Source of the DNA: Caulobacter mirabilis
GTDB taxonomy: Bacteria; Pseudomonadota; Alphaproteobacteria; Caulobacterales; Caulobacteraceae
DNA: 64,000 nt
Assembly (NCBI RefSeq): GCF_002749615.1
Contig: NZ_CP024201.1
Span: 744,001-808,000, forward strand
Reading direction: 5' to 3'
How positions within the stretch are numbered: the stretch's first letter is position 1; each line of letters begins with the position of its first letter. Positions 10,341 to 58,550 of the stretch are shown piece by piece. Under the pieces are notes generated by a model. That model ran no database searches. It saw only the letters and a list, made by a program, of their open reading frames with translations, and was not told where the DNA came from. Both the position numbers and the translations under genes were made by a program.

Positions 10341-10420
10341 GGGGACATGCTCCCGCAGGGTGCGTGTCCCCGATCACCCCGCGGCCAGGGGACACGCACC
10401 GCTATGCGGAGCATGTCCCC
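10341..10420. repeat. Dispersed palindromic repeat, family B, copy 1
   Basis: An 80-bp element with GGGGACATGCTCC at the left end and GGAGCATGTCCCC at the right end (perfect inverted termini), and inner arms GGTGCGTGTCCCC / GGGGACACGCACC. It sits between the convergent amidohydrolase and permease stops. Other copies: 34090-34170 and 58468-58550. Confidence 0.85.
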
Positions 10421-13631: not shown

Positions 13632-14852
13632 ATGACCGATACGACCGCCGACCCCAGTCCTGCCCCCGCATTCACGCCGGAGAAGACCGCCTTCGGCGTG
13701 ATCCTGGCGATCAGCTTCTGCCACCTGCTCAACGACATGATGCAGTCGCTGCTGCCGGCCATCTATCCGAACCTCAAGGCCGAGCTGAACCTCACCTTCG
13801 GGCAGATCGGTCTCGTGACGCTCGTGTACCAGGTGACCGCCTCCATCCTGCAGCCGATGGTCGGCTGGTACGCGGACCGGCGGCCGACGCCGATGGCGCT
13901 GCCGGGCGGGACGCTGTTCTCGCTGGCCGGGCTGGCGGTCCTGGCGGTGGCGCACAGCTATGCGCTGTTGCTGGTCGGGGCCTGTCTGCTGGGCATGGGA
14001 TCGTCGGTGTTCCACCCCGAGTCCTCGCGGGTGGCGCGGATGGCCGCCGGCGGCCGCCACGGCCTGGCGCAGTCGCTGTTCCAGGTCGGCGGCAACGCCG
14101 GCTCGGCCCTGGGACCGCTGGCGGCGGCCGTCGTGGTCGTGCGCTGGGGCCAGTCGAGCCTGGCCTTCTTCGCCCTGCTGGCGTTGCTGGCCGGCGGCAT
14201 CCTGTGGAACGTCGCCCAGTGGTATCGCCACCACGGCCTGGCGCGCCTGAAGGCCGCCGCCGCCCGCGGCGTCGCCGAGGCTCCGCTGCCGCGCGGGGCG
14301 GCCGGTCGAGGCATCGCCATCCTGCTGGCGCTGATCTTCTCGAAGTACGTCTACCTGGCCAGCCTGACGAGCTACTTCACCTTCTATCTGATCCAGCGCT
14401 TCCAGCTGTCTGTCGAGCACGCCCAGATGTACCTGTTCGTGTTCCTCGGCGCGGTCGCGGTCGGCACCATCGCGGGCGGGCCGCTGGGCGATCGCTTCGG
14501 ACGCAAGCCGGTGATCTGGCTGTCGATCCTGGGCGTGCTGCCGTTCAGCCTGCTGCTGCCCCACGCCAGCCTGTTCTGGACCGGGCCGCTGTGCGTGATC
14601 ATCGGCCTGCTGCTGGCCTCGGCCTTCCCGGCCATCGTGGTCTTCGCCCAGGAGCTGACGCCCGGCCGGGTGGGCATGATCTCCGGCCTGTTCTTCGGCT
14701 TCTCGTTCGGGATGGGCGGGCTGGGCGCCGCGGCGCTGGGCTACGTCGCCGACGCCGCCGGGATCGAGACCGTCTACCGGATCTGCGCCTTCCTGCCGGC
14801 CATCGGCCTGCTGGCGGCCTTCCTGCCCAACCTCCGCAAGGCGACGGCCTGA
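13632..14852 (+). CDS. MFS transporter, fosmidomycin-resistance (Fsr) type
   Basis: A 406-aa major facilitator protein with 12 hydrophobic segments. The block GMGSSVFHPESSRVARMA followed by GGRHGLAQSLFQVGGNAGSA is characteristic of Fsr-type pumps, which expel fosmidomycin and probably other small acidic compounds. The second-half MFS signature is GPLGDRFGRKPVIW. ATG 13632 (MTDTTADP) is preferred to an upstream in-frame ATG because the extra residues are not family-like and would overlap the promoter. The divergent AraC gene, 89 bp away, is the likely regulator. The native substrate is not shown by sequence. Confidence 0.9.
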   Translation: MTDTTADPSPAPAFTPEKTAFGVILAISFCHLLNDMMQSLLPAIYPNLKAELNLTFGQIGLVTLVYQVTASILQPMVGWYADRRPTPMALPGGTLFSLAGLAVLAVAHSYALLLVGACLLGMGSSVFHPESSRVARMAAGGRHGLAQSLFQVGGNAGSALGPLAAAVVVVRWGQSSLAFFALLALLAGGILWNVAQWYRHHGLARLKAAAARGVAEAPLPRGAAGRGIAILLALIFSKYVYLASLTSYFTFYLIQRFQLSVEHAQMYLFVFLGAVAVGTIAGGPLGDRFGRKPVIWLSILGVLPFSLLLPHASLFWTGPLCVIIGLLLASAFPAIVVFAQELTPGRVGMISGLFFGFSFGMGGLGAAALGYVADAAGIETVYRICAFLPAIGLLAAFLPNLRKATA

Positions 14853-14861
14853 CTGAACTTT

Positions 14862-14911
14862 TGTGACACGCTGTTCCGGCGGCGTGTCACAACCGTCCCG
14901 CCTGTATCGTC
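14862..14911 (+). promoter_or_regulatory. ECF41-type promoter within a perfect inverted repeat
   Basis: TGTCACA at 14885-14891, a 16-nt spacer, then CGTC at 14908-14911: this is the described ECF41 promoter signature. The -35 element is the right arm of a perfect 10-bp inverted repeat (TGTGACACGC 14862-14871, GCGTGTCACA 14882-14891). The operon that ends with the ECF41 gene starts 26 bp downstream, so autoregulation is expected. The left arm gives a mirror-image TGTCACA on the minus strand with CGTC after 15 nt. Confidence 0.8.
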
Positions 14912-14937
14912 TTCCCCTCAGAGAGAGGGAGACGACT

Positions 14938-15327
14938 ATGATCCAACGCGGGATCGCGGCGCTGCTGGGCGGGGGCCTGGCCGTCAATGCGCTGTTCATG
15001 CTGGCCAAGCCGCTGCCCTGGTACGACGCCGTGCCGGGGGTGCCGCTGACCGGCGCCTTCAACCCCCACTTCGTCCGTGACATCGGCATGGCCTATGCGG
15101 TCGTGAGCCTCGGCCTGCTGTGGTTCGCCTGGCGGCCGCGACAGGGCTGGCCGGCGCTGGTCTGCGCCGCGGCCTTCCTGTCGCTGCACGCCGCCATCCA
15201 CGTCGGCGACGCCAGCTGCTCGGGCAGCTTCTGGGGCGACCTGGCCCGCGATTTCCCCGGCGTCTTCCTGCCCGCCCTGATCGCGACGGCCATCGCCGTC
15301 CTGTCCCGTCCCACGAAGGAGGCCTGA
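14938..15327 (+). CDS. Small integral membrane protein, first gene of the ECF41 operon
   Basis: A 129-aa protein with four predicted membrane segments: about residues 5-22, 44-64, 72-90 and 103-122. I do not recognise a named family with certainty. Conserved-looking features are the segment between TM1 and TM2 (PWYDAVPGVPLTGAFNPHFV) and HxxxHxGDASC near 86-95, a possible metal or redox site. ATG 14938 follows GAGAGAGGGAG, a strong Shine-Dalgarno. It lies directly behind the ECF41-type promoter and one base before the next gene, so it is a core member of this sigma factor's own regulon. Confidence 0.8.
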   Translation: MIQRGIAALLGGGLAVNALFMLAKPLPWYDAVPGVPLTGAFNPHFVRDIGMAYAVVSLGLLWFAWRPRQGWPALVCAAAFLSLHAAIHVGDASCSGSFWGDLARDFPGVFLPALIATAIAVLSRPTKEA

Positions 15328-15328
15328 C

Positions 15329-15883
15329 ATGCTGAAAGCCCTGCTCCGTCGCCAGCTGGCGAACTTCGAGAGGACCTGGGGATACGACGCGACCTACATG
15401 CGCGAGTTCCTCGACGACGATCCCTGGGCCTTCATCCGCTTCGGCTTCGTCGCGTCGCTGGGCCACGGCAAGCGGGCCCCGGCCGAGGCCGTCGCGGCGG
15501 CGGGGGTGGTCGGGACCCTGGCCGGCGACTGCGGGCCCTGCACCCAGCTCGGGATCGACATGGCCGCCGCCGACGGCGTCGCGCCCGGGGTGCTGCGCGG
15601 AGTCCTGGCCGGCGACCGCCAGGCGATGGGCGAGGCAGCGGCGCTGGGCTACGACTTCGCCCACGCCGTCCTCGACCGCCGGCTGGCCGACGCCGACGAG
15701 ATCCGCGAGGAGATCCAGCGCCGCTGGGGGCGTCGTGCGCTGCTCGACATCGCCCTCGCCCTGACCACCGCCCAGATGTATCCCACGCTCAAGTACGGTC
15801 TCGGCCATGGCCGGTCCTGTCAGCAGGTGACGGTCGGCGGCGTCGCCGCCCCCTTCCAGCATGCGGAGCGCGCAGCGGCATGA
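15329..15883 (+). CDS. Carboxymuconolactone-decarboxylase/AhpD-like protein
   Basis: A 184-aa mostly helical protein with CGPC at 68-71 (GDCGPCTQLGIDMAA), the redox CxxC of AhpD-type proteins, and the GVAPGVLRGVLAGD element that follows it. It probably acts in thiol-dependent reduction or hydroperoxide removal rather than in carboxymuconolactone breakdown. ECF41 sigma factors are typically encoded next to proteins of this superfamily, and here the stop overlaps the sigma-factor start (ATGA). Its starting codon is one base after the preceding stop. Family call is by motif; it is more divergent than classical AhpD. Confidence 0.75.
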   Translation: MLKALLRRQLANFERTWGYDATYMREFLDDDPWAFIRFGFVASLGHGKRAPAEAVAAAGVVGTLAGDCGPCTQLGIDMAAADGVAPGVLRGVLAGDRQAMGEAAALGYDFAHAVLDRRLADADEIREEIQRRWGRRALLDIALALTTAQMYPTLKYGLGHGRSCQQVTVGGVAAPFQHAERAAA

Positions 15884-16746
15884 ACACCCGATCCATCGAT
15901 CTCTTCGAGCGCGAACGCGCGCGGCTGCAGCGTCTCGCCTACCGCATGCTCGGCTCGGTCAGCGAGGCCGAGGACGTGGTCCAGGACGCCTGGCTGCGCT
16001 GGGACCGCGCCGGCGAGGCGGCCGAGAACCCGCAGGCCTGGCTGATGCAGACCGTCACCCGCCTGTGCCTCGACCGGCTGAAGTCGGCCCGCGCCCGCCG
16101 CGAGACCTACGTCGGCCCCTGGCTGCCCGAGCCGCTGATCGAGGAGATGCCCGAGGATCCGGTCGAACGGGCCGAGGACGTGTCCGTCGCCTTCCTGCTG
16201 GCGCTGGAGCGGCTGTCGCCGCTGGAGCGGGCGGTGTTCCTGCTGCATGACGTCTTCGACCAGGACTACGCCGACATCGCCCGCCAGCTCGGCCGGGGCG
16301 AGCCCGCGGTGCGCCAGCTGGCCGCCCGGGCGCGAGGCCACGTCAAGGACGGCCGGCCGCGCTTCACGGTCTCGCAGGAGAAGACCATGCAGCTGGCGGC
16401 GGCCTTCATGGCCGCGGCGGTCGGCAACGACACCGCCCAGCTGTCCAGCCTGCTGGCCGAGGACGCGGTGCTGATCTCCGACGGCGGCGGCAAGCGTCCG
16501 GCGGCTCTGCGCCCGATGGTCGGCCGCGACGACGTGATGGGGCTGATCTCCGGCATCATCAACACGCACGGCGCCTTCGCCCGGCCGCTGGCCATGCGTC
16601 CGGCGCTGATCAACGGCGTGCCCGGCGTGGTGATGGAACTGGAAGACGGCGTCCAGACGATGGCCTTCGAGGCCGGCGACGACGGCAGGCTGGCGGCCAT
16701 CTACATCATGCGGAACCCGGACAAGCTGGGGCATGTGAGGACGTAA
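15880..16746 (+). CDS. ECF41-family sigma factor with SnoaL-like C-terminal domain
   Basis: A 288-aa extracytoplasmic-function sigma factor. Region 2 (LQRLAYRMLGSVSEAEDVVQ, about 17-36) and region 4 (LSPLERAVFLLHDVFDQDYA, about 112-131) bind the core enzyme and promoter. It carries the ECF41 hallmarks: WLPEPL at 81-86 in the linker, DGGGK at 201-205 and NPDKL at 279-283 in a roughly 120-residue C-terminal extension. In studied members this extension both activates and restrains the sigma factor, replacing an anti-sigma factor; none is encoded here. The start overlaps the AhpD-like gene by four bases. The promoter at 14885-14911 fits its expected target. Confidence 0.93.
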   Translation: MNTRSIDLFERERARLQRLAYRMLGSVSEAEDVVQDAWLRWDRAGEAAENPQAWLMQTVTRLCLDRLKSARARRETYVGPWLPEPLIEEMPEDPVERAEDVSVAFLLALERLSPLERAVFLLHDVFDQDYADIARQLGRGEPAVRQLAARARGHVKDGRPRFTVSQEKTMQLAAAFMAAAVGNDTAQLSSLLAEDAVLISDGGGKRPAALRPMVGRDDVMGLISGIINTHGAFARPLAMRPALINGVPGVVMELEDGVQTMAFEAGDDGRLAAIYIMRNPDKLGHVRT

Positions 16747-58467: not shown

Positions 58468-58550
58468 GGGGACATGCTCCCTCAGGGTGCGTGTCCCCGC
58501 GGCTCTCTAAGGAATGGGGACACGCACCGGCCCTGCCGGAGCATGTCACC
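58468..58550. repeat. Dispersed palindromic repeat, family B, copy 3
   Basis: GGGGACATGCTCC at the left, inner arms GTGCGTGTCCCC/GGGGACACGCAC, and GGAGCATGTCACC at the right (one base changed from the other copies). It starts 3 bp after the LOG gene stop. A short fragment of family C (GTCTCGAAGGACGCA) follows it. Confidence 0.85.

Follow-up and report, generated by a model that had tools for sequence, protein, structure and literature searches.

The window, as we call the whole stretch of DNA analysed here, comprises 64,000 nucleotides from Caulobacter mirabilis. On its plus strand, a gene for an MFS transporter (13632..14852; PF07690, E = 1.4e-46) ends 8 nt 5' of an inverted repeat, and a three-gene operon follows on the same strand. 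The first gene of the operon (14938..15327) encodes a 129-aa protein for which the Pfam search returned no match; one remote relative of this protein gave matches to DUF4345 and DoxX_2 that fell below the cut-off. The second gene (15329..15883) encodes a carboxymuconolactone-decarboxylase (CMD)-like protein with an invariant CGxC motif, found in 17 of 17 aligned homologues, only one of which matches PF02627, and that weakly (E = 0.027). ECF41 factors are expected beside a COE gene, encoding a CMD with CxxC, an oxidoreductase or an epimerase, and gene 2 is a candidate for this role. The third gene (15880..16746) matches the SigJ model NF007214 with 357.2 bits (cut-off 271) over residues 4–287 of 288, and TIGR02957 with 323.4 bits, which is at the cut-off of 323.25. 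It carries sigma2 (PF04542, E = 3.9e-14) and sigma4 (PF08281, E = 1.9e-14) domains, and its translation contains GPWLPEPL, the WLPEP linker motif that has been named as characteristic of the ECF41 group (Wecke et al. 2012, PMC3426412). The span of the NF007214 match indicates that the C-terminal extension of ECF41 factors (about 100 aa, SnoaL-like) is present; taken alone, the SnoaL_2 Pfam match is weak (E = 0.14). On these sequence features, we identify gene 3 as an ECF41 sigma factor that closes the three-gene operon.

Ahead of the operon stands TGTCACA-N16-CGTC, with the -35 box TGTCACA at 14885..14891 and the -10 box CGTC at 14908..14911, both on the plus strand. The mapped start of the SMb20029-rpoE9 operon of S. 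meliloti is 9 nt downstream of the same motif (PMC3616915), a spacing that would place the transcription start of the window operon at 14918..14921, about 9 nt past CGTC. The occurrence of TGTCACA-N16-CGTC upstream of such genes has reporter and 5'-RACE support in two organisms (Wecke et al. 2012, PMC3426412). The pattern TGTCACA-N15-17-CGTC is matched twice in the window, compared with a mean of 0.09 in dinucleotide shuffles, and the whole genome (4.58 Mb) holds three exact matches, namely this forward site, a mirror site on the opposite strand and one site elsewhere.

Of 75 genomes of the genus, in collections with one genome per species, 23 contain the gene-2 protein (E <= 1e-10), that of the window among them; the relative loci analysed number 102, with 22 from the genus and 80 from named genomes. 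The pattern [TC]GTCAC[AG]-N15-17-[CT]GTC occurs at the expected place in 96 of the 102, and no promoter was found by pattern in the searched stretch of L092, L097, L099, L100, L104 and L111 (for L111, only 281 bases upstream). Removal of 12 duplicates left 84 distinct promoters, which were chosen by this pattern, so that their agreement with it is no proof by itself; the spacer is N16 in 83 of them and N15 in one. Within the genus, 21 of the 22 other loci have TGTCAC[A/G] and CGTC separated by N15-16, and the remaining one has CGTCACA-N16-CGTC. A matrix built from the 84 relatives gives the forward site, which is outside the training set, 29.0 bits, compared with a median of 29.9 and a range of 12.4–35.4 for the relatives scored in-sample; sites outside the matrix (L003, G008 and G213) score 20.7–33.3 bits. 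The original prediction of an ECF41-type promoter before three operon genes, the last of them for an ECF41 factor, is supported, and we regard the site as a standard ECF41 promoter of the known kind.

The genome contains two further loci of this type. Its third exact match (L003:1501-1527, genome 3113987-3114013; 33.3 bits) stands before a lone CMD gene (PF02627, E = 9.3e-24), which is likely a second target. A second ECF41 factor is encoded at genome 3396080-3396919 (L005; 240.2 bits), where a divergent ORF appears CMD-like by eye (CxxC) and a weak promoter candidate, CGTCACA-N16-CGTC, scores 13.0 bits.

The feature that sets the window promoter apart is the inverted repeat over its -35 box. 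The left arm, TTGTGACACGC, lies at 14861..14871 and the right arm, GCGTGTCACAA, which contains the -35, at 14882..14892 of the plus strand. It had been predicted that the -35 box forms part of the right arm of a perfect palindrome with 10-bp arms; the placement and the perfect symmetry hold, and the arms prove to be 11 bp long, with a loop of 10. When the mononucleotides of the upstream 60 nt were shuffled 20,000 times, an 11-bp arm on the -35 arose twice, and the corresponding RNA hairpin (-23.1 kcal/mol, z = -4.56) is more stable than all of 200 shuffles. Size alone does not make it rare among perfect repeats, since six in the window have arms of 11 bp or more around loops of 3–20. The pair TGTGACA-N4-34-TGTCACA occurs only once in the genome, as the window palindrome itself, and we accordingly rejected the possibility that the palindrome belongs to a genome repeat family. 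A different inverted repeat, GGTGCGTGTCCCC...GGGGACACGCACC, does recur, at 10359-10400 and 58486-58528 of the window and at L003:1422-1463, and is perhaps a REP-like element.

The palindrome is private to the window genome among the relatives examined. It is found at none of the 22 other genus loci, though all 22 have the promoter, and in none of the 84 distinct relatives, where the longest arm on the -35 is 5 bp with an upstream partner and 6 bp when a downstream partner is allowed. A promoter kept where the palindrome is not had been named beforehand as the outcome that would refute the original interpretation, and this is what the relatives show.

The setting of the left arm suggests where it came from. 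Within the genus, 11 relatives of the MFS gene were found (E <= 1e-60), 10 of them next to an AraC gene. None of the 74 other genus genomes combines the MFS gene, at E <= 1e-60, with the gene-2 protein, at E <= 1e-10, and the MFS gene is absent from the analysed stretch of all 102 relative ECF41 loci, so that the palindrome lies where an AraC-MFS block meets the ECF41 operon. In 7 of the 11 MFS relatives, a hairpin, GGCCAGCC-N4-GGCTGGCC, is found 22–32 nt past the MFS stop and is followed by 4–6 T in 8 nt; no such terminator-like hairpin lies behind the window MFS gene (14853-14900). We rejected the palindrome as a conserved 3' element of the MFS gene, since the 10 relatives with a readable 3' flank (that of L131 was unreadable) have a different hairpin or none.

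A strong, G+C-rich stem directly past a stop codon could nonetheless act on the MFS transcript, and it had been proposed that the site doubles as a terminator. The window stem is no canonical intrinsic terminator because a T-run is absent on either side: the 8 nt that follow hold one T on the plus strand and two on the minus strand, compared with the 4–6 behind the hairpins of the relatives. A consensus terminator scan likewise found none in the window, which is weak evidence in that the same scan also misses the hairpins of L122 and L127. We give a canonical terminator for the MFS gene next to no chance. A looser version, in which the RNA hairpin acts on the MFS transcript by termination, pausing or stabilisation, takes the place of the hairpin seen in the relatives and blocks read-through into the ECF41 operon, has more in its favor: the stem begins 8 nt past the MFS stop and is unusually stable, the hairpin of the relatives is missing in the window, and some hairpin with z < -2 lies within 40 nt before the -35 in 8 of the 84 relatives. 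However, 76 of the 84 lack such a hairpin, the missing T-run counts against this version as well, and an insulator of this kind would have no need of a copy of the -35. We therefore consider it unlikely, if worth keeping in mind. One of the eight relatives with a hairpin, L014, is fairly near to the window, and its stem, which is imperfect and weak (-9.4 kcal/mol), covers part of the -35.

The left arm also creates a second promoter-like match, TGTCACA-N15-CGTC, on the minus strand (14843..14868), with TGTCACA at 14868-14862, CGTC at 14846-14843 and 15 nt between them. The pattern match confirms this mirror site as originally described, and it raised the possibility of a bidirectional ECF41 promoter that would also produce antisense RNA to the MFS gene. 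Genuine back-to-back ECF41 promoters exist. The pattern TGTGACA-N4-34-TGTCACA-N15-17-CGTC is found in 2 of 75 genus, 3 of 390 family and 8 of 385 class genomes, with the window genome counted each time, and in G008, G213 and G428 it corresponds to pairs with N16-CGTC on both sides, located in the gap from which an ECF41 gene and a CMD-like gene diverge. This is the <ECF< >COE> arrangement described by Wecke et al. 2012 (PMC3426412). Three other class matches (G634, G697 and G707) showed no match to the window ECF41 in the stretch fetched. The divergent pairs share with the window two TGTCACA boxes in mirror order. Whereas each of their sides has N16-CGTC and a gene, and both sides score 20.7–31.3 bits in G008 and G213 (G428 was outside the scoring), the window mirror has a spacer of N15 and a poor -10, and it lacks a divergent gene. 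Its spacer is matched by 1 of the 84 relatives, but its score of 2.9 bits, compared with 29.0 for the forward site, is lower than that of every relative (lowest 12.4), and at least seven other window positions among the matches listed outscore it. The base after its CGTC is G, which is seen in none of the 84 relatives, its CGTC falls within the last codons at the MFS 3' end, and it is directed into that plus-strand gene. On the matrix score and the comparison with the divergent pairs, we judge the mirror non-functional and reject the bidirectional promoter, which we would now call highly improbable.

The remaining function considered for the palindrome is binding by a protein. In this model, both arms would be bound by a protein dimer, which may be the sigma factor itself in the absence of RNA polymerase, and this would block or tune the promoter. 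Two perfectly symmetric 11-bp arms are what such an operator might look like, and a similar case exists in another alphaproteobacterial genus, three species of which (G422, G550 and G648) have TGTGACATC-N9-GATGTCACA holding the -35 of an ECF41-gene operon (L138:1501-1547, also L137 and L139). In these three genomes, the only ones of their family in the collections, the 9-bp arms are identical and the loop differs at one base, with flanks that are nearly as conserved; an ORF upstream is co-directional, and the promoter pattern is unmatched on the mirror side. A class-wide survey of 65 of 66 ECF41 genes (the second ECF41 gene of the window genome was left out) with a stricter pattern on both strands gave 30 distinct promoter-like sites in 29 loci and missed others, including G428; the arm is 9 bp in three sites, all in the other genus, 11 bp in the window and at most 6 bp in 26. 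Arms of at least 9 bp arose in 14 of 20,000 shuffles of the window upstream region, which corresponds to about 0.08 expected in about 110 promoters, so that two lineages are above chance. This excess could reflect recurrent selection or recurrent inverted duplication. The heptamers are separated by 16 nt in the window but by 13 nt in the other genus, which counts against one common binding protein. The absence of the palindrome from all 84 relatives and the single occurrence of the heptamer pair in the genome also argue against an operator, and the loci of the genus, with the promoter throughout and the palindrome nowhere else, lend no support to the earlier suggestion that another protein binds the site. 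An operator of either kind of protein is thus, in our view, improbable. Still more doubtful is its strongest form, in which -35 palindromes arose independently in two alphaproteobacterial lineages and serve as operators; the protein bound there, which could be the free sigma factor using two sigma4 domains, would hold the operon repressed pending a signal. If true, this would represent a second level of control for ECF41 factors, one that is not described in the available text of the two reports on this promoter type (PMC3426412 and PMC3616915).

A second inverted repeat (14907..14935, plus strand; 13 nt, 85% complementary, loop of 3) connects the -10 box with the Shine-Dalgarno region. The putative start lies inside its loop, and therefore only read-through RNA would mask the ribosome site. 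Pairing of the Shine-Dalgarno region with at least 4 of the first 8 leader nucleotides is seen in 72 of 83 relatives (a start codon was found for all but one of the 85 loci), with a median z of -0.7 and z < -2 in 18 of the 83. In a swap test on 80 loci, the window included, own pairs were better than swapped pairs (-8.85 vs -7.95, sd 0.18; none of 5000 swaps equal), and own pairs were also better in 58 loci outside the genus. Within the genus (22 loci), the test was not significant (p = 0.16), and a control spacer stretch differs as well (-7.80 vs -7.10, p = 0.0012). The control difference and the null result in the genus point to relatedness as a possible cause of the own-pair advantage, and relatedness may thus lie behind the apparent signal of Shine-Dalgarno sequestration.

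Taken together, we favor, with some confidence, a model in which the operon is autoregulated through a standard ECF41 promoter and the palindrome, specific to this lineage, arose by inverted copying of the -35 region at the AraC-MFS/ECF41 junction, most likely without a regulatory role. By analogy with published ECF41 work, the sigma factor would activate its own operon (the small protein, the CMD-like protein and the sigma factor itself) through this promoter. An AraC-MFS block would have been placed directly upstream of the ECF41 operon, and the left arm would have arisen at the junction as an inverted copy of the -35 region. A template switch at a block join can leave an inverted copy, and such an event may have been the source of the left arm here. 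The palindrome itself would then most likely have no regulatory role of its own; at most, the MFS transcript would be terminated or shielded by its RNA hairpin. Counting against an accident are the very low likelihood of an 11-bp arm by chance, the 9-bp counterpart in three species elsewhere and the weak stem over part of the -35 in L014. Even so, the palindrome is more probably an accident of evolution where two gene blocks meet than a two-way promoter.

With this site, the ECF41 promoter family gains a clear member from Caulobacter. As in the ECF41 target promoters described by Wecke et al. (PMC3426412), TGTCACA-N16-CGTC lies ahead of the candidate COE gene of a COE-ECF-type operon, and the first 11 letters of the promoter, TGTCACAACCG, are identical to those of R. 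sphaeroides RSP_0606 in that report. The words "palindrom" and "inverted repeat" are absent from its main text. The S. meliloti rpoE9 promoter (PMC3616915) shares the motif with the window site, and the available text of that report mentions no palindrome; nor did an open-access literature search find a report of a palindrome in ECF41 promoters. Our case separates the conservation of a promoter from a striking but private palindrome: the motif and its place before the operon are those of the known ECF41 promoters, whereas the perfect 11-bp inverted repeat over the -35 is, among the promoters compared, found only here.
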